The translations under genes were made by a program, and so were the position numbers. From an uncultured Pelagibacteraceae bacterium (GTDB lineage Bacteria > Pseudomonadota > Alphaproteobacteria > Pelagibacterales > Pelagibacteraceae): a DNA stretch of 64,000 nt. The stretch is taken from contig CACJNI010000001.1 of NCBI GenBank assembly GCA_902594705.1, positions 62,001 through 126,000 of the forward strand, given 5' to 3'. Under the pieces are notes generated by a model that was given only the letters and a program-made list of their open reading frames with translations, was not told the DNA's origin and searched no databases. Shown here in pieces: positions 38,402 to 47,138 of the stretch (the stretch's first letter is position 1; every line of letters begins with the position of its first letter).

Positions 38402-39024
38402 GGAAAAGTAAATTTTGCCTGAAATTCAATTTCATTTTTTTTTAAAATATAATCACCTGAATTTCCAAATGGGATGGTAGTTCCATCCCAATCTTTAGGA
38501 TTAATATAATTTTTATTAAATAATTCTTTTTTTAATTTAAATATTTGATCTGAATATTTATTTTTTTTTAAATCACTTTCGGCTAAAAATTTTGAAGTTG
38601 GGATATTAGCTTTCTTATATAAATTAAAAAGTTTATTTATTTGCTCATCTGGAATCTTTCTTACTGTGAAGCTTCTCTTCATTTTATCTAAATCTATATC
38701 CATTTTCCAAATTTTTGGAAATTCACTTTTGGTTCTAAAAAATGCTAAATAGTATATTATATGATTGTCTTCATATTTAAGATTATAATACCTAGGCTCT
38801 ACACTTGAATTTTCTATATATGCAGAAAGCCTTTGTTTATCTTCATATATTTTTATATCTTCTGACATACAGTTTAATACATATTCTGCTGCTATAGAAT
38901 TTTTATTAGATAAAAAGATAGAACAGCAAATAAATGAAAAATAAACGAAAAATAAAACTATAATTTTGTTATGAAACTTCTTTATACTCATCCCACTTGC
39001 CATCCTGATCGTAATCATAAGCAA
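38383..39024 (-). CDS. Small secreted two-Cys protein, paralog C (start probably the internal Met, MSIKKFHNK, near 38991)
   Basis: Signal peptide; NYINPKDWDGTTI; C-terminal CSIKN. Confidence 0.78.
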   Translation of the reverse strand: MLMITIRMASGMSIKKFHNKIIVLFFVYFSFICCSIFLSNKNSIAAEYVLNCMSEDIKIYEDKQRLSAYIENSSVEPRYYNLKYEDNHIIYYLAFFRTKSEFPKIWKMDIDLDKMKRSFTVRKIPDEQINKLFNLYKKANIPTSKFLAESDLKKNKYSDQIFKLKKELFNKNYINPKDWDGTTIPFGNSGDYILKKNEIEFQAKFTFPCSIKN

Positions 39025-40228
39025 TTAAGTCAATTTTTTTATCTTCATTTTCATCGATAAAAGCTCTATTTGCCTTACCATCTAGGTCATCGTCAATCAA
39101 TTGTAATTCCCAAATACCATTCTCATTTTCATCATATAATATTGCTTCTATAAAACCGTCTTCATCATCATCGACAAGTGCTTTTTCATATTTACCATTT
39201 TTATTTGGGTCTAGATACCAAGTATCGATAATAGCGTTTTTATTAAAGTCCTGTGTTTTTGCATTCGGGTAATCTTTCTTCATAACAATCTCAGCAGGAT
39301 TTATATTTTTTAGATTAGGATTTTTTTTTAAAAAATTGATTGCATGTTCAACGGAAACTGCAAAGTTAATGTTCTCTCCTGGACCCTTTAATGTATTTAC
39401 ACCAACTAAATTTCCGTTTTCTGAAAATAAGGGACCTCCTGAATTTCCAGGATTAATTGGTGTTTGGGTTTGAATTACAGTAGCTGTATGTTGGTATTGG
39501 CTATCAGGATATGTCCAATCCTTTTTTTTTCTTATTTGATTAATTATTCCCTCTGAAAAAGTCCATGGCAACCCCTCTGGATGTCCTATGGCAAATACTT
39601 TATCACCTACTCGAACTTCTTTTATAGATCCAATTGTTACTTTTTTTATAATATCTGGAAAATTGCCTACTTTAACTAAAGCCAGATCTTCTTTTTTATT
39701 TGTTGCTACAACAGCGCCATATAGTGGCTCTAGATCTTCATAAATTTTTTTTTCAGTCGGCACACCTTCGTCCGGAAGTATCCATACTGCAACTTCGTCA
39801 GCTTTTTGGACAACATGCCAATTAGTCAAAATTATTCCAGGTTTCTCAATTAAAAAACCAGATCCAACATTTTTTCCTTCATAATTTCCAATGTAAACAA
39901 CAGTTTTGGCATATCTAGAATAAATTGGTCCACCTCCTCCCCTAGTTTTAATACGTTTTGAGATATTTGTTGCTGATGCACCTAAAAGTTTAGAATAATT
40001 TTTTGCTTTCGTTCTTTTTATCAAATTTTTTTTGAATATTTCTATATCCGTCTTAATTTTTGATTTAAGAATTTTGCCTCCTGATCCTCTTGTAATAATT
40101 TTTGATCCGTCTTTAGCTTCTGATTGGCCATAAGTATAATTATTCGATCTAGATATTGTTTCATCAGAAAAAAGATGACTACTAAGATAAAAAAAAACAG
40201 AAATAAAAATAAATATTTTTTTTATCAT
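38969..40228 (-). CDS. Exported trypsin-like (S1C) serine protease with C-terminal EF-hand-like D-rich repeat array
   Basis: Triad motifs ILTNWHVV, EDLALVKV, INPGNSGGPLF; C-terminal DPNKNGKYE/DDDEDGFIE/DENENGIWE/DDDLDGKAN/DENEDKKID/DYDQDGKWD. Confidence 0.9.
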   Translation of the reverse strand: MIKKIFIFISVFFYLSSHLFSDETISRSNNYTYGQSEAKDGSKIITRGSGGKILKSKIKTDIEIFKKNLIKRTKAKNYSKLLGASATNISKRIKTRGGGGPIYSRYAKTVVYIGNYEGKNVGSGFLIEKPGIILTNWHVVQKADEVAVWILPDEGVPTEKKIYEDLEPLYGAVVATNKKEDLALVKVGNFPDIIKKVTIGSIKEVRVGDKVFAIGHPEGLPWTFSEGIINQIRKKKDWTYPDSQYQHTATVIQTQTPINPGNSGGPLFSENGNLVGVNTLKGPGENINFAVSVEHAINFLKKNPNLKNINPAEIVMKKDYPNAKTQDFNKNAIIDTWYLDPNKNGKYEKALVDDDEDGFIEAILYDENENGIWELQLIDDDLDGKANRAFIDENEDKKIDLIAYDYDQDGKWDEYKEVS

Positions 40229-41787
40229 CTTAAGAAACTTAAAAAACCTGCTGTATAAGGGTTATCTATTGAATTAAAAAAAATAATAAATAGAATTAAA
40301 AATATATATGTTACGGGTCCATATATCCTACTTTTACTATCAATAAATTTCCATTTTACATTTCTATTTTTGTAAAGTTGAAAACTATAAATACTTATAA
40401 AGTTCGGCAAGGTTGCAAAAATATAAGATAATAAAATAATATAATCCATTAAGGTCAAGTAGCCTAATTTAGGTAAATCCTGATCAATTACAAAATTGTA
40501 AGCTATAAGAGATAATAAACAAACGATAGTTATTGTTAATTTGGACTCCAGTTCTCTAGGATGTATCCAAAAGACCGACCAACAAACCAATAAAATCAAG
40601 ACCATTGGAAGAATAATTTTAAAAATGTAATAACCATAATCTCTCTCAATTTCTATTATCATTTGAACGCCATCTGTTGGATAAATTTCAGGATTTTCAA
40701 CTTTTATATATTTTGTACTTGTATCTAGCATTCTCCATTCTAAAATTTTGTTATTATTTTTGAAATAAGCAAGATACCTATCGTTATACAAATTGCTGTC
40801 TAAAGTTTGCATGTCCAAATCTCTAGACAGATCTGCAAATTGGAAAACCAGTTTTTGTTTATCAAATGGAAATGCTTTTAAAAAATATTCAGATGTAAAA
40901 GTAAAAGTTCCAAATTGTTTTGATGTAATTTCTACGAAATTATCATCATATGATGTATCTTTGTACTTTTCATTGCCTTTCCAAATATCACTTATTTGAA
41001 ATATATATTCTCTATTAATTAATGTTTTATCTTGTCTTATAGAATTAATATTTTCAATCCAAGGATTCCAAATTTGCATTTCTTCAAATTCATCCTCTGT
41101 AAATTTACACATCCAAAATTCATTGTTATCTTTATTTATAACTAGATGCTTTCTAGAAACATCATAAATAGATGGAACTTTGTATATTGCGTTAATCTCC
41201 ATATCTGCTTGGAAAGTATTTTCTTTTATGTTTATGCCAGAGACATTACGAATTTTTAATTGTATGTTAACTGGTACTATTTCTGGTTTTTCTATGTATC
41301 CTTTGTCATACTCAATTTTGTTTCCATAACTATTTAAGAAAACTATTTTTGGAGATGGATCGGTAGAATAGATTGCATCAACTAATTGATCCTTAGAAAA
41401 TTCACTTACTTTTTTTCCATTAATTTCAATTATTTCATCTCCAATCTCTAAACCCTTTAAGACTTCATAATCATAAATTTTTCCAATAGTTAAGTTTTTA
41501 TTTTCATTCAAAGCCCATATAAATTCATTATCTTCGTCTATTACTTTATAATTCTTGTTATCCACGCCCCAGATCCATTCATCAATCTCGGAATTGTAAT
41601 ACAAAGAAACATCAAATGGTGGATTATATAATTTAGAGTATGGATGTTCCTGAAACTCAGATGCATTATCTGCATTTTTTATGTCTTCCATCAAAGCTGC
41701 GCATCTTGATAATGAGTATGAGTTAGAGTTTAATAAAAACAAAAATAAAGATAATACGAGGGAAATAATCTTAAATTTTTTTTTCAT
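40225..41787 (-). CDS. Pentameric ligand-gated ion channel (Cys-loop family) with N-terminal PDZ-like domain
   Basis: Signal peptide; PDZ-like LKGLEIGDEIIEINGKKVSEFSKDQL; ligand-binding domain WNPWIENINS, AFPFDKQKLVFQFAD; TM1 ERDYGYYIFKIILPMVLILLVCWSVFWIHP; TM2 ESKLTITIVCLLSLIAYNFVI; TM3 YLTLMDYIILLSYIFA; C-terminal TM4. Confidence 0.88.
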   Translation of the reverse strand: MKKKFKIISLVLSLFLFLLNSNSYSLSRCAALMEDIKNADNASEFQEHPYSKLYNPPFDVSLYYNSEIDEWIWGVDNKNYKVIDEDNEFIWALNENKNLTIGKIYDYEVLKGLEIGDEIIEINGKKVSEFSKDQLVDAIYSTDPSPKIVFLNSYGNKIEYDKGYIEKPEIVPVNIQLKIRNVSGINIKENTFQADMEINAIYKVPSIYDVSRKHLVINKDNNEFWMCKFTEDEFEEMQIWNPWIENINSIRQDKTLINREYIFQISDIWKGNEKYKDTSYDDNFVEITSKQFGTFTFTSEYFLKAFPFDKQKLVFQFADLSRDLDMQTLDSNLYNDRYLAYFKNNNKILEWRMLDTSTKYIKVENPEIYPTDGVQMIIEIERDYGYYIFKIILPMVLILLVCWSVFWIHPRELESKLTITIVCLLSLIAYNFVIDQDLPKLGYLTLMDYIILLSYIFATLPNFISIYSFQLYKNRNVKWKFIDSKSRIYGPVTYIFLILFIIFFNSIDNPYTAGFLSFLR

Positions 41788-42454
41788 ACTCTCTTTTCTT
41801 CCTTTTTTGTTTTCTTTTTAAATTTAAAAATAATTTTACTCCAATAACCCATGCAATTACTATAATTATAAGAGAAATTAGAAAATTAGAGTAGACAAAA
41901 TAATTATAAAAGCCGTGTAAAAAGAATGGAGTCAAAAATGCATAAATCAAATTTTCTCCCTTTTTTACAAAAACATATTTCATAAAAAAATATCCCATAA
42001 ATATGCCAAAAACTGCATGAGCAGGAACTGCTGAGAAAGCTCTTACTAAAGCAAGAGTCATTGCCGAAGTCCCAAATGTATCAGAGATTATATACACATA
42101 GTAAAAGTTCTCTAATGTTGCAAAACCAAGTGAAGCGCAAACACCATAAACAATGCCGTCCATGGGTTCATTAAAATCTTTCATTTTAAATACAAAAAAA
42201 TAAAGAACAGCTAATTTTAATCCTTCCTCTATTGGGGCAGCTGTTAAAAAAGAACCAATTAATTTCTCATCAACACCAATTAAAGAATAATAATTTGCAA
42301 CAGAGGTATTTAAATAAAAAGCTGGAATTGTTATTAAAATTCCATATGAAAAAACTTTAATTATTTCATTTGTTGGTTCTTTAAATTTATCTGAATTCAC
42401 AAAAAACAAAATTATAAGAAGCGATGGTAAAATTGTTGCTAATAGTAAAGACAT
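41771..42454 (-). CDS. PrsW-family intramembrane protease-like protein
   Basis: Multi-TM with APIEEGLKL (EExxK), ATLENFYYV, PAHAVFGIFMG, PFFLHGFYNYF. Confidence 0.85.
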   Translation of the reverse strand: MSLLLATILPSLLIILFFVNSDKFKEPTNEIIKVFSYGILITIPAFYLNTSVANYYSLIGVDEKLIGSFLTAAPIEEGLKLAVLYFFVFKMKDFNEPMDGIVYGVCASLGFATLENFYYVYIISDTFGTSAMTLALVRAFSAVPAHAVFGIFMGYFFMKYVFVKKGENLIYAFLTPFFLHGFYNYFVYSNFLISLIIIVIAWVIGVKLFLNLKRKQKRKKREYEKKI

Positions 42455-42915
42455 TAACTATTTTCTATTGTTGTTTTTATTTTCAAAATTTTATTTTCTA
42501 AAGCCTCAAAAGCAGCAAAAATTTCTTTTTTCTCAACAGCTGAAATTGTTTCACCTTTGTGACCCTCAGGATTTTTTGCAGAATTAATTACATCCATAAG
42601 TTGACCATGTAATATTGTAAATTTAATTAAAAGTTCGTTTAGATCTTGTTGATTGGTATTAATATTTTTAAGTTCTTTTAAAATTATATATTCATGTGCC
42701 CTTAATAAATAGGGCGTTAAACCTTGCTCAACACATGCCTTGTCAATTTTAACAGCATCTCTATGATCTAACTGTTGATCCAAATCAGGATCGCTACATT
42801 TTCTTATAAAAGATTCACTTTTACCAGTTACTTGCTCTATTACTGCAGATTTTAAGTTTTTAATTGCTTCTGCAAGCCCTCTTTCTATCGATGAAATTTC
42901 TCTTAACTTGGCCAT
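42454..42915 (-). CDS. Helical, phage-regulator-like protein (RKCSDPD family), copy 1
   Basis: GKSESFIRKCSDPDLDQQLDHRDAVKIDKACVEQG shares pattern with 45181-45639 product. Confidence 0.6.
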   Translation of the reverse strand: MAKLREISSIERGLAEAIKNLKSAVIEQVTGKSESFIRKCSDPDLDQQLDHRDAVKIDKACVEQGLTPYLLRAHEYIILKELKNINTNQQDLNELLIKFTILHGQLMDVINSAKNPEGHKGETISAVEKKEIFAAFEALENKILKIKTTIENS

Positions 42916-43056
42916 AATATTTAATTCGAAATTTTAATACAAAATTTGGGCAAATAAAATCTAATAAAATATGGAATTGTCCATTATTGCTTGGTCTATT
43001 TCACATACAAAATCTCCAATACAGATCTTATCTAATTTCCATAACAAAGGAGAAAT

Positions 43057-43143
43057 ATGAAGAACTTTTTATTAGTTTTAAAGACAATCAAGATAAATTT
43101 TGAACTTGATTTAATCAAACCTTACCGAAAGGAGGACATATGA
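43057..43143 (+). CDS. Micro-ORF (28 aa), possible leader peptide
   Basis: AAAGGAGAAAT-ATG; MKNFLLVLKTIKINFELDLIKPYRKEDI; stop overlaps next ATG (ATGA). Confidence 0.45.
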   Translation: MKNFLLVLKTIKINFELDLIKPYRKEDI

Positions 43144-43295
43144 AAAGGTTATTAATGACAATTGGTGTATTATCAATGTTAGCAACTTCTGCTAATGCTG
43201 GATACTGGTCTCACACTCCAAAATTTGGAGGAGGATGGGAAAGTCACTATATACCAAGCACAACAGATATATTAAGACAATACGGTATCTGGTAA
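43140..43295 (+). CDS. Micro-ORF (51 aa), secreted Gly/Trp/Tyr-rich peptide, not in ORF track
   Basis: AAAGGAGGACAT-ATG; MKRLLMTIGVLSMLATSANA|GYWSHTPKFGGGWESHYIPSTTDILRQYGIW: clean signal peptide with ANA cleavage site. Confidence 0.8.
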   Translation: MKRLLMTIGVLSMLATSANAGYWSHTPKFGGGWESHYIPSTTDILRQYGIW

Positions 43296-43302
43296 CAACA
43301 AT

Positions 43303-43321
43303 AGCCCCTCGAAAGAGGGGC
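43303..43321 (+). other. GC-rich hairpin GCCCCTC-GAAA-GAGGGGC after micro-ORF
   Basis: 7-bp perfect stem with GAAA tetraloop; no U-tract, so not a clear intrinsic terminator. Confidence 0.7.
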
Positions 43322-43489
43322 AGAAATATTATGAATATTATACACAAAAAATTGAATTTAAAAAAAAAGATGGAATTAATCGGCGAATTTAAAGATTTTT
43401 TAATCCAAAAAATAAATTTTATTTCATTAGAAAAAACTAATTTGAATATTTATTCTACATTTATGAAAGGGAAAAAAGGTAAATAAAAA

Positions 43490-44791
43490 ATGAGTAAAGA
43501 ACTTACAATTGAATGTCCAAAATGTAATCATGTGTTTTCCGCAGATGATGCATTGCAAAATCATTTAAAAAATAAACAACTTGAAATCCAGAAACAATTA
43601 AAGGATAAAGAAAAACAAATTACAGATAAAATCAAAGCAGATTTCGAAAACAAAGAAAAATCTCTTAAACAAAAAGTTGCTCAAGAAATTCAGAGCAAAA
43701 ATAAAAAAATTATTGAAAATTTACAGTCAGAAATCCAGAATTTTGATAAAAAAAGCAAAGAAATAAAAAACAAATTAGAGGCAGAGAAACAAAAAGAAAA
43801 AAAATTGTGGGAAGAACGACTTCAAAATGCTGAGAAAACTAAGAAACAATTTGAAAACAAAATGCAGGTAGATTTTGAAAAAAAACAAAAAGCATTAGAA
43901 GATAAAATTAAAGTTCAAGAAAAAAATCTTGAAAAAGAAATCGAGAAAAAGCTTAAATTACAAATAGAAAAAAATGTTGAGGCCAAATCAAACAAAGAAA
44001 TTGAAAGACTTCAAAATGAAATACTTAAAAAAGAAAAGCAAAGACAAATTGAAAATCAAAGACAAGAAAAAAGAATAAATGAAATGGCAAAACAAATTAA
44101 ACAAAAGTCTGTTGAAATTCAGGGAGAAGTTCAAGAAGAATTAATTGAAGATTTTCTAAGAAATAGATTTCCAGAAGATACCGTGGAAGAGATAAAAAAA
44201 GGATCTAAAGGTGGTGATTGTATTCAAACAATTAACCACAAAGGTCAAAATAATCTTGCTCAAATTTATTTTGAAAGTAAAGACCATAAAAACTTTAAAG
44301 AGGAATGGGTGGATAAGCTTTTAAATGATATGAAAGCAAAACATATTAATTTTGGTGTTTTAATAACTAATGTTATGCCAAAGGATACAGACAAACATTC
44401 TGGGTACGCATTAAGGCATGGAAAAAGAATAATGATTATTCCAATGAATTATCAAATAATTCATTTACTAGTGGATTTTTTAAGAAGAAATCTTATTAGA
44501 GAATTTAATTCAAAAAAAGACTTCGATGCACCAAAAGAATTACAAAAACTTTGGGATCATATTACTGGACCTAGTTTTCAATTACCTTTAAGAAAACTTT
44601 TTCAAACTATTGGCTCTATGGGAGAGCTAATTCAAAAAGAGAAAAAGTTTTATGAATCAAATATGGCTAAAAAGGAAAGAACATTAACCGACATGGAGGG
44701 TGATTTTAGAGATTTAATAAATTCATTTTCATTAAAAGTTGGTAATGTTTTGCCTGAAAACATGCTAGAGATAGAAAATAAAAAGGAATAA
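43490..44791 (+). CDS. DUF2130 family protein (zinc-ribbon-like N-term, long coiled coil, nuclease-like C-term)
   Basis: IECPKCNHVFSADDAL; coiled coil; GSKGGDCIQTI...AQIYFESKDHKNFKEEWVDKL. Confidence 0.8.
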   Translation: MSKELTIECPKCNHVFSADDALQNHLKNKQLEIQKQLKDKEKQITDKIKADFENKEKSLKQKVAQEIQSKNKKIIENLQSEIQNFDKKSKEIKNKLEAEKQKEKKLWEERLQNAEKTKKQFENKMQVDFEKKQKALEDKIKVQEKNLEKEIEKKLKLQIEKNVEAKSNKEIERLQNEILKKEKQRQIENQRQEKRINEMAKQIKQKSVEIQGEVQEELIEDFLRNRFPEDTVEEIKKGSKGGDCIQTINHKGQNNLAQIYFESKDHKNFKEEWVDKLLNDMKAKHINFGVLITNVMPKDTDKHSGYALRHGKRIMIIPMNYQIIHLLVDFLRRNLIREFNSKKDFDAPKELQKLWDHITGPSFQLPLRKLFQTIGSMGELIQKEKKFYESNMAKKERTLTDMEGDFRDLINSFSLKVGNVLPENMLEIENKKE

Positions 44792-44797
44792 CTTAAA

Positions 44798-45172
44798 ATG
44801 AACAAAGTTAAGAAAAAAGAAAAAAGTGGTTTTATAAAAAGTTACTGGAATGGTGAAGAAAGCTTAGGTTTCAGTTTTTGGGCAATTGCAGTCCTTGGTT
44901 TAACAGTATTGAGTATTCCAATGATCGTTATAGAAACCCAAGGAGATGTATTTTACGATAAGATTTCAAATTTTGGAGCTCTACTGTTCCTTGCTTATGT
45001 AATAGGAGTAATTATTGCAAGTGTATTTGTATATGTTGGTTTGTGGAGAAGTGCATCAAAATATATTAATTTAAAAAAAAAGAAAAAACAGTCAGCAGTC
45101 TGGGGTTACTTAACTTACGTTTATATTGTTCTTGCAGTAATTAGATCTGCATCTGCGATGATTGCCGGATAA
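44798..45172 (+). CDS. Small multi-TM protein of unknown function
   Basis: 124 aa with three hydrophobic segments; SYWNGEESLGFSFW. Confidence 0.6.
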   Translation: MNKVKKKEKSGFIKSYWNGEESLGFSFWAIAVLGLTVLSIPMIVIETQGDVFYDKISNFGALLFLAYVIGVIIASVFVYVGLWRSASKYINLKKKKKQSAVWGYLTYVYIVLAVIRSASAMIAG

Positions 45173-45180
45173 AAAAAAAA

Positions 45181-45639
45181 TTAAGTCTCAACCGCTTTCT
45201 TTAAATCAGAAAGTTTGCCCTCAACATCTTTTAGCGCTTTATAAATTTTGTCTTTTTCTTGCTTGCTTAAATTAATTCCACTTTGGCTATTTGGATCTAA
45301 CGCTTTTTCTGTAACATCAGACAAATTTCCAATTCTTGCAACTATCTGCATTAAACTTTGAGAAACTGAAAACTCTTGATTGCTCTCGGTTCTTTTTTTG
45401 TCAATTGTATGTATAAACGTGCTCAACAAAGGTGTTCCTAAACCCTGCCTGTCTAACAATATATCTATTTGGATAGCATCTTCAAAATGTATTATATTAT
45501 CTTTATTGTCTGGGTCGGAGCACTTTCGAAAGTGTGATAAACTTTTACCTGTAGCCGATTTTACTTCCTCTTCTTTTAAGTTTTTGAGGCTATGCGCAAG
45601 GGCTTGCTCTACTGTTCCGAAGTCTCTTATAATTGTCAT
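45181..45639 (-). CDS. Helical, phage-regulator-like protein (RKCSDPD family), copy 2
   Basis: ATGKSLSHFRKCSDPDNKDNIIHFEDAIQIDILLDRQGL; paralogous to 42454-42915 product. Confidence 0.6.
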   Translation of the reverse strand: MTIIRDFGTVEQALAHSLKNLKEEEVKSATGKSLSHFRKCSDPDNKDNIIHFEDAIQIDILLDRQGLGTPLLSTFIHTIDKKRTESNQEFSVSQSLMQIVARIGNLSDVTEKALDPNSQSGINLSKQEKDKIYKALKDVEGKLSDLKKAVET

Positions 45640-45761
45640 AAATCTTTATTTTACTCAATGAAAAATAAAAAATCTATTTCATTATATTTTAAATCACAAA
45701 TAAATTAAACATATAACACATTGTATTGTGTCTTTTGATCTAGACACTCCTTTCTAGTTGA

Positions 45762-45795
45762 CCCCAGCGTGTATCTTTCCGCGCTGGGGTTTTTT
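45762..45795 (+). terminator. Orphan Rho-independent terminator
   Basis: CCCCAGCG - TGTATCTTTCCG - CGCTGGGG then TTTTTT; no plus-strand ORF upstream back to 45640. Confidence 0.88.
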
Positions 45796-45856
45796 AATGA
45801 AAAAACTAATTTTTATTTCACTAAAAAATTTGAATTTAATTTATTAAATTAATCAC

Positions 45857-46103: not shown

Positions 46104-47138
46104 ATGAGAACTAAAGAATTTAATAAAATCAAACCTTATACATATGTCTTAACTCGTAAGTCTGACAATAAAAAATACCATGGTGTGCGTTTTGGAAACA
46201 TAAAATTAGGACTAACACCAAATGAAGATTTTGGAAAAAAATACTTTGGTAGTAGCACCGGTCGTTTTTGTAAAGATTTTAAATTAAATCCTAAAAATTA
46301 CTTTTTTAAATTAATATGGAGTTTTGATCAGATTGAAGAGGCATTATTTCACGAGAAAAAATTTAATAAACAAATTCTTAAAAATAAAAACTGGGAAAAT
46401 AAAAATGCTTTTCCAGCAATCCAATATGATGTTCATCCACTATTAGGTAAAAAACATTCAAAGGATTCAAGAATAAAAATGTCAAATTCCCAAAAAGGGA
46501 AAAAAGCTTCTCCAGAGACAAGACTAAAGTTGTCAAAAATGAGAAAAGGAAGAAAATTGACCAAAGAACATATTGAAAATATTAGAAAAGGAAATGTCGG
46601 AAAAAAAAGAAGTACGAAAACCAAAGAAAAAATAAGATTGGCAAATTTAGGAAGGAAGGCTTCAACAGAAACAAAATTAAAAATGTCAATGATGCGCAAA
46701 GGAGTTCCTAAAAGTAAAAAACATAAAGCTAAACTTAAAAAACATTTAAAAAAATTTATGTTTAAAAAAGGTGAGATGCCTTGGAATAAAGGACTTAAAG
46801 GAAAGCAAGTAGCTTGGAATAAAGGAAAAAAATTTTCCATTGAGTCTAGAATGAAAATGTCTTTAAGCCAAAAAGGCAAAGTACCTTGGAACAAAGGGAA
46901 AAAAGGTCTTCAAGTAGCTTGGAATAAAGGGAAAAGAGGTCTTCAAGTACCTTGGAATAAAGGGAAAAAAGGTCTTCAAGTAGCTTGGAATAAAGGAAAA
47001 AAATTTTCCATTGAGTCTAGAATGAAAATGTCTTTAAGCCAAAAAGGTAAAGTACCTTGGAATAAAGGACTTAAAGGAGTGATGATTGCTTGGAATAAAG
47101 GAAAAAGATTTAAAAAAAATATTTATGCTACCACCTGA
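46104..47138 (+). CDS. Homing-endonuclease-like protein with NUMOD3 repeats
   Basis: N-term YTYVLTRKSDNKKYHGVRFG (GIY-YIG-like phage endonuclease style); repeated GKKHSKDSRIKMSNSQKGKK / PWNKGKKGLQVAWNKGK motifs. Confidence 0.75.
   Translation: MRTKEFNKIKPYTYVLTRKSDNKKYHGVRFGNIKLGLTPNEDFGKKYFGSSTGRFCKDFKLNPKNYFFKLIWSFDQIEEALFHEKKFNKQILKNKNWENKNAFPAIQYDVHPLLGKKHSKDSRIKMSNSQKGKKASPETRLKLSKMRKGRKLTKEHIENIRKGNVGKKRSTKTKEKIRLANLGRKASTETKLKMSMMRKGVPKSKKHKAKLKKHLKKFMFKKGEMPWNKGLKGKQVAWNKGKKFSIESRMKMSLSQKGKVPWNKGKKGLQVAWNKGKRGLQVPWNKGKKGLQVAWNKGKKFSIESRMKMSLSQKGKVPWNKGLKGVMIAWNKGKRFKKNIYATT
46809..47069 (+). repeat. Internal repeats of endonuclease gene: ~90-bp direct repeat offset 171 bp (46809-46898, 46980-47069) plus 33-nt tandem units between
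   Basis: gtagcttggaataaaggaaaaaaattttccattgagtctagaatgaaaatgtctttaagccaaaaagg twice; ggtcttcaagta(g/c)cttggaataaaggg... 33-nt units. Confidence 0.9.

Follow-up and report, generated by a model that had tools for sequence, protein, structure and literature searches.

A conserved SAR11 slot holding interchangeable micropeptide cassettes with signal peptides

Replacement flexible genomic islands of aquatic prokaryotes carry different genes, presumably with the same role, at the same position, and are exchanged by homologous recombination in the flanks (PMC4033161). In polymorphic toxin systems, including PrsW-linked ones, a variable exported product is swapped as cassettes with a PrsW-family protease nearby (PMC3482391). 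The locus described here resembles both. It was found in the window, by which we mean the whole analysed stretch of 64,000 nucleotides from an uncultured Pelagibacteraceae (SAR11) bacterium, and coordinates below are those of the window. In contrast to the replacement islands, what is replaced in SAR11 is one micropeptide cassette of about 125–300 bp, set in a constant regulatory module. Unlike polymorphic toxins, it has no toxin domain, PrsW fusion or immunity gene, and the whole mature peptide is swapped. The hallmark of those toxins, a constant trafficking region fused to a variable toxin domain, is absent, since the signal peptide and the mature part both vary; searches of Pfam, NCBIfam, PHROGs and PADLOC gave no toxin domain.

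The cassette in the window consists of two tiny ORFs on the plus strand. The first (43057–43143) encodes a 28-aa leader, MKNFLLVLKTIKINFELDLIKPYRKEDI, and is preceded by the Shine-Dalgarno (SD) region AAAGGAGAAAT (43046–43056, +), which is retained in the alignment of upstream regions. The second (43140–43295) encodes a 51-aa micropeptide, with the signal peptide MKRLLMTIGVLSMLATSANA at 43140–43199 and a mature part of 31 aa, GYWSHTPKFGGGWESHYIPSTTDILRQYGIW, at 43200–43292. The two ORFs overlap as ATGA (43140–43143), and the SD of the second, AAAGGAGG at 43128–43135, is located inside the leader ORF; both SDs are strong. The signal-peptide-like N-terminus ends ANA/G and is kept in relatives (both judged by eye), which meets the export-signal criterion for an exported bacteriocin or microcin. 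The cassette is closed by a GC hairpin, GCCCCTCGAAAGAGGGGC (43304–43321), that starts 8 nt past the stop codon of the peptide. The pattern GCCCCTC(N3-8)GAGGGGC occurs only once in the 1.32-Mb genome, at this hairpin, and in 13 of the 16 loci collected below the same place is taken by a perfect hairpin of 7 bp or more with a different sequence. We call it a cassette-closing or mRNA-end hairpin rather than a proven terminator because no U-run follows it on the plus strand; the terminator scan scores it as a terminator on the minus strand alone, and it is not a textbook intrinsic terminator on the plus strand. RNA folding over 43020–43345 is stronger than that of shuffled sequences (z −3.8).

These elements had been proposed by a first-pass annotation made from sequence alone, namely a coupled pair of 28- and 51-aa micro-ORFs with near-consensus SDs and an ATGA overlap, a signal peptide followed by a 31-aa Gly/aromatic mature peptide, a GC hairpin directly after the pair, and an ORF (43235–43486) running over this site in another frame. 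The ORFs, SDs, overlap and hairpin were all confirmed, and the signal peptide (textbook-looking by eye) and mature peptide were supported. The other ORF, of 83 aa, holds as well; it comes from a mechanical listing and overlaps the coding peptide in another frame, and no counterpart of it was seen when the related loci were inspected. Coupled translation is only plausible, being inferred from the ATGA overlap and the SD within the leader.

Related loci were collected by a search with the CII-like regulator encoded beside the cassette, which gave 16 loci in contigs of Pelagibacteraceae single-cell genomes; a collection based on the regulator is biased toward intact slots. A small signal-peptide ORF with an SD, divergent from the regulator, is present in 15 of these 16 and in the window, which makes 16 Pelagibacter loci, and one genome of a neighbouring genus brings the total to 17. 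In the remaining contig locus (L055, regulator 57% identical), other small exported-looking ORFs occupy that position. A PrsW gene lies on the other side of the regulator, with a PDZ/pentameric-ligand-gated-channel protein beside it or one gene further on, in 16/16 loci. The order of the slot is fixed as PDZ-channel protein, PrsW, CII-like regulator, divergent promoter region with an inverted repeat, SD, cassette and GC hairpin. The module occupies more than one chromosomal site: seven loci have it in the priA / lpd-sucB-sucA interval (genes named by eye), and in the window, L044, L051 and L054 it adjoins rpoD-dnaG. The slot is rare in the genus: among 399 genomes, the regulator was detected at E ≤ 1e-30 in 20 and close copies at E ≤ 1e-70 in only 8, several of which are the same genomes as the contig loci.

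Beyond the cassette, a zinc-ribbon gene (c5) and a small membrane protein (c3) are often encountered. The c3 gene of the window (44798–45172, +), which has no family in Pfam, is near the slot in most loci by gene order and has the opposite orientation in the other loci. A DUF2130 gene (43490–44791, +; PF09903, E 1.4e-30) is located downstream in the window genome only; most other loci have c5 in its place or proceed straight to c3, and the window lacks c5. As this gene adjoins the slot only in the window and has a relative in only 5 of 121 related genomes, it was rejected as a fixed partner. Membership of a defence system was also rejected, its support being limited to weak coiled-coil matches to DUF2130 in the defence-system search.

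Searches with the peptide alone were far less informative than synteny. The mature peptide has one copy in its own genome, and a search of 200 relatives gave weak matches only, with E values of 0.05–0.08. Two of them (G044 and G048) overlap another gene and were discarded as chance. The marginal match in G042 (E 0.08) proved to be a syntenic locus, where the same neighbours accompany a leader ORF and an exported peptide of quite another kind. No family was found for the peptide in Pfam, PHROGs, NCBIfam or PADLOC, and the comparison with phage records gave no convincing match (best E about 1). A profile search with another peptide type, type B (defined below), through 197 genomes of the order identified a single genome, G530, from another genus of the family, and there too the match occupies the slot, accompanied by the same set of channel, PrsW, regulator and c3 genes. 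Since this search used the type B peptide alone, G530 provides an independent, reciprocal confirmation of the slot.

The mature peptides of these loci fall into at least six types. Type A is present in the window, L051 and L053; type B in L042, L049 and L054 and as a second ORF in L053; type C, with four Cys, in L040, L045, L046, L047 and L050; type D, with SSLNWDN repeats, in L044, L048 and L052; type E in L041; and type F in L043. Type F is possibly a relative of type B, with which it has PNIYGG in common. The cassettes are replaced while the flanks stay nearly identical. L041 and L042 share 99% identity in regulator DNA and 98% in the intergenic region, and their peptides are unrelated (E versus leader plus B); L045 and L048 (93% and 88%) have types C and D, and L051 and L050 repeat the pattern at 91% identity. 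On a tree built from regulator and PrsW DNA, in which the long branches of L052 and L053 are placed uncertainly, peptide type changes 11 times against a minimum of 5, and shuffled labels give a mean of 10.0 changes and a count as low or lower in 200/200 shuffles, so the flanking genes and the peptide type are not linked. The chromosomal site changes only twice on the same tree. The criterion for a replacement cassette, different content at one site between near-identical flanks, is thus met by L041/L042 and by the 11 changes on the tree.

Both tiny ORFs are real protein-coding genes under protein-coding constraint. Within types, the mature parts show purifying selection, with dN 0.20 and dS 1.81 for type A (window versus L051), dN/dS pairs of 0.17/1.49 and 0.19/1.89 for type B, and dN of about 0 with dS 0.87 for type C, and the mature peptides are accordingly coding. 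A homologous leader is found in 7 loci, with dN/dS of 0.08–0.26 among close copies; in L042 its frame continues into a longer overlap. Frame conservation, dN/dS, the ORF pair in 7 loci and the slot in 17 thus support the first-pass claim of a leader and of an exported Gly/aromatic peptide that has an SD of its own. The observation that would have refuted it, a lack of frame conservation in relatives, was not made, and synteny was needed to establish this.

The leader accompanies only peptide types A, B and F and is missing with C, D and E; the 9 of 16 loci without it all still have the peptide. Upstream of the SD of the peptide, the leader carries a conserved stem-loop of 7 bp (43086–43111, +; arms 43086–43092 and 43105–43111). 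In the 7 sequences 94% of the cells are paired and three pairs are changed on both sides, and sliding the partner arm leaves at most 57% paired. The amino-acid changes accompanying the stem (IK...LD, IE...FD) are non-conservative, a point in favour of selection on the RNA, although seven sequences are few. The leader does not satisfy the description of an attenuator: it has no codon run, and the stem is conserved but no U-run terminator lies between leader and peptide.

The unrelated types converge in composition. They share the form of uncharged, aromatic and mostly Gly/Asn/Ser/Thr-rich mature peptides of 21–75 aa behind a signal peptide. Aromatic residues make up 14–33% (10% in the proteins of the window), Gly/Asn/Ser/Thr, in which the peptides are mostly rich, 27–61% (25%), charged residues 0–15% (27%) and Lys 0–5% (13%). 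A combination of at least 20% aromatic, at least 40% Gly/Asn/Ser/Thr and at most 20% charged residues is met by only 1 in 3300 35-aa windows of ordinary proteins encoded in the window. The net charge ranges from −6 to +1, so that the cationic character common, not universal, among bacteriocins and microcins is lacking. What the types share points to a role at the envelope or outside the cell that depends on composition or exposure, rather than to a cationic antimicrobial. Beta-flower proteins (PF21785; PMC10584680) are the nearest described family for type D, whose peptides match the repeat at E values of 1.4e-4 to 4e-3; however, only a partial repeat is matched and the score of 22.1 bits is below the cut-off of 38, so type D does not qualify as a member. 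Type A, the type of the window, has no match to beta-flower.

Between the regulator and the cassette is an operator-like inverted repeat, TTGGGCAAA ... ATTGTCCAT (42946–42984), with half-sites 30 bp apart from start to start. The spacing of TTGGACAAA and TTTGTCCAA is exactly 30 bp in 15/15 loci that retain both halves. The operator pattern has one other match in the genome, within a sigma-factor-like coding gene, and this second match was taken as chance. A conserved TTTCACATAC box (42999–43008, +), present in nearly all of the 17 aligned upstream regions, may be the −10 region, a function that is inferred. The G530 locus, from the other genus, retains the TTTGTCCAA half-site and TTTCACTAT.

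The regulator (42454–42915, −) is divergent from the cassette. It resembles phage 186-type CII regulators, with weak profile matches to PF06892 (E 2.9e-5) and to the CII-like PHROG 101 (E 1.5e-4), and the top PDB match of its predicted fold is phage 186 CII (E 0.35, prob 0.99), which is statistically weak. At 24.4 bits it falls below the Pfam cut-off of 26 and does not meet the family criterion. In contrast to the phage regulators, no phage structural genes were seen alongside, and the protein belongs to a family of diverged SAR11 paralogues. Binding of the inverted repeat by the CII-like protein is inferred from position, without binding data.

The PrsW-family intramembrane protease (41771–42454, −), whose gene overlaps that of the regulator, meets the Pfam criterion (PF13367, E 8e-34, 117.3 bits against a cut-off of 23.5); its match to NF033739 (E 1.7e-38) is below the stricter NCBI equivalog cut-off. 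The next gene (40225–41787, −) encodes a PDZ domain (PF00595, above cut-off) that precedes the ligand-binding region of a pentameric ligand-gated ion channel (pLGIC). The protein matches the prokaryotic pLGICs (ELIC, GLIC and DeCLIC; PMC549065) both by sequence (ELIC chains, E 7e-16) and by predicted fold (Foldseek to ELIC and DeCLIC, E about 1e-14), the confidence of the model being moderate (pLDDT 69). The family criterion of an extracellular beta domain, an FPFD Pro-loop and four membrane helices is met, and FPFD is invariant in 12 relatives. Bacterial ligand-gated channels with additional N-terminal periplasmic domains are known, and PDZ is not mentioned in that report (PMC549065). Compared with the known pLGICs, the window protein is distinguished by the PDZ fusion and by its link to PrsW, a CII-like regulator and micropeptides.

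The periplasmic part of the channel protein is hypervariable, mostly 15–30% identical between loci; the membrane part is mostly 45–60% identical to that of the window and up to 99% identical between close loci. Does the channel follow the peptide? The channels of L047 and L048 are 87/94/98% identical, yet the peptides are of types C and D, and those of L045 and L047 are 52/63/99% identical, yet both peptides are of type C. A strict coevolution with peptide type was therefore rejected for the neighbouring channel copy, and a direct ligand–receptor pairing is unsupported. Of 20 more distant CII-like genes, 11 also have a channel-like gene no more than 1.5 kb away (L014, L015, L017, L019, L025, L031–L033 and L035–L037), so the link between channel and regulator is wider than the peptide slot.

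Several other genes lie about the module. Insertions beside the channel gene, namely an amine-oxidase-like gene (c9; L044, L049, L050, L053 and L054), a gene for a secreted-looking protein (c12; L046–L048 and L050) and second copies of the channel, make this side of the module variable too. In the window, a trypsin-like protease gene (38969–40228, −) adjoins the channel gene, and such a gene is beside the module also in L051 and L052. A 344-aa protein (46104–47138, +) with five NUMOD3 motifs, homing-endonuclease-type repeats of which several are near-identical, suggests that the region collects mobile genes. A second CII-like paralogue is encoded at 45181–45639 (−); upstream of it, 45640–45800 contains no convincing ORF, ends in a clear terminator-like hairpin, GACCCCAGCG...CGCTGGGGTTTTTT (about 45761–45796), and is possibly a small RNA.

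Our preferred explanation, which could equally well prove right or wrong, is that the two ORFs together represent one allele of an exchangeable cassette for an exported micropeptide, in a regulated slot for envelope or extracellular peptides under diversifying selection. An envelope cue would act on the PDZ-channel protein, and PrsW and the CII-like regulator would relay the signal to the divergent promoter, where the CII-like protein would bind the inverted repeat and control both divergent units. Ribosomes on the leader would open or reach the SD of the peptide, so that leader translation and the stem would set peptide output. Sec would export the peptide to its place of action, whether periplasm, cell surface or surroundings, and diversifying selection by phage, grazers or kin would favour its exchange through homologous recombination in flanking DNA. 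Without expression, secretion or binding data, all of this is inferred: the binding by the regulator, the relay, the coupling, the export, the function of the peptide and the selection pressure on it. The regulator and channel are tied to the peptide by neighbourhood alone, and diversifying selection is deduced from replacement, not from dN/dS, which is purifying within types.

Among the alternatives, autosignalling survives best, though it is unlikely. Here the exported peptide would be the ligand of the PDZ-channel protein, and that protein, PrsW and the CII-like regulator would make up a strain-specific pheromone circuit. PDZ domains bind C-terminal tails. The conserved neighbourhood, the high variability of the PDZ and ligand-binding regions beside a conserved membrane part, and the wide linkage of channel and CII-like genes speak for it. 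However, closely related loci show no covariation of channel and peptide, a test left incomplete by loci with two channel genes, and peptides of different types have unrelated C-termini (W, N, Y, D and F).

A narrow-spectrum, bacteriocin-like antimicrobial, exchanged as toxin cassettes are and with PrsW as immunity or processing protease, is also improbable. Cassette replacement, the occurrence of PrsW-like peptidases in polymorphic toxins (PMC3482391) and the small size of the exported peptides, some with 4 Cys, are in its favour. Against it, the net charge is near zero or negative; no neighbour switches with type, as an immunity gene should, PrsW being the same across types and the presence of c5 and c3 ignoring type; and there is no exporter and no toxin or immunity match in PADLOC or Pfam. 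The antimicrobial option raised by the first-pass annotation thus has no positive support, given a charge near zero, no type-following gene and no dedicated exporter.

Unlikely too is a structural role, in which the peptides would be low-complexity aromatic filler of the envelope (coat, adhesive or assembly aid), with the exact sequence of minor importance and replaced neutrally. The convergent composition, the repeats in types B and D and the weak similarity of type D to beta-flower fit this idea, but the strong purifying selection within types and the rigid spacing of the promoter region do not. That the leader is the functional part, an attenuator or stalling peptide with the downstream peptide secondary, is suggested by its conserved coding and stem and is very unlikely, as 9 of 16 loci keep the peptide without it, it has no run of repeated codons, and it accompanies types A, B and F only.

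The preferred reading of a regulated slot for exchangeable exported peptides can be extended into a bolder one, which we think less likely than not: a PDZ-bearing ligand-gated channel and an intramembrane protease would govern a CII-like switch, and the output of the switch would be a hypervariable exported micropeptide, exchanged among strains in the manner of an identity or evasion marker. If true, SAR11 would possess a class of variable surface or signalling peptide system not described before; searches of the open-access literature, with subscription papers and preprints outside their scope, gave no account of a slot of this kind in SAR11. Should the inferred circuit prove correct, prokaryotic ligand-gated channels would gain a regulatory role with a defined output, and the loci would supply natural variants with which to test what the channels sense. 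SAR11 bacteria rank with the most abundant of marine cells, and their genomes are streamlined; that they keep a conserved slot for interchangeable exported micropeptides implies a strong pressure from outside. Annotation easily misses genes of such small size.

Relatives of the peptides are not confined to the slot. Those of type A are found in L051 (73% identical), L053, G208 and G232, and in G208 (near rpoD) and G232 the setting is different, under a repeated promoter-like motif. There (L074 in G208, beside rpoD, and L075 in G232), several small signal-peptide ORFs are clustered, one of them the type A relative, and some stand behind the repeated motif TTGAATAAAATCTGACTTCAAACGTTA with a shared MNTNKQLTKGNK start. 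The cluster adjoins ECF-sigma-like and anti-sigma-like proteins, identified by eye only and neither confirmed by Pfam. Viral contigs searched with types A and D and the CII-like protein gave no matches. Two phage-like contigs (L058:823–1092 and L076:2094–2417) encode signal-peptide proteins with PN(V/I)(F/Y)GGYN repeats that resemble type B.
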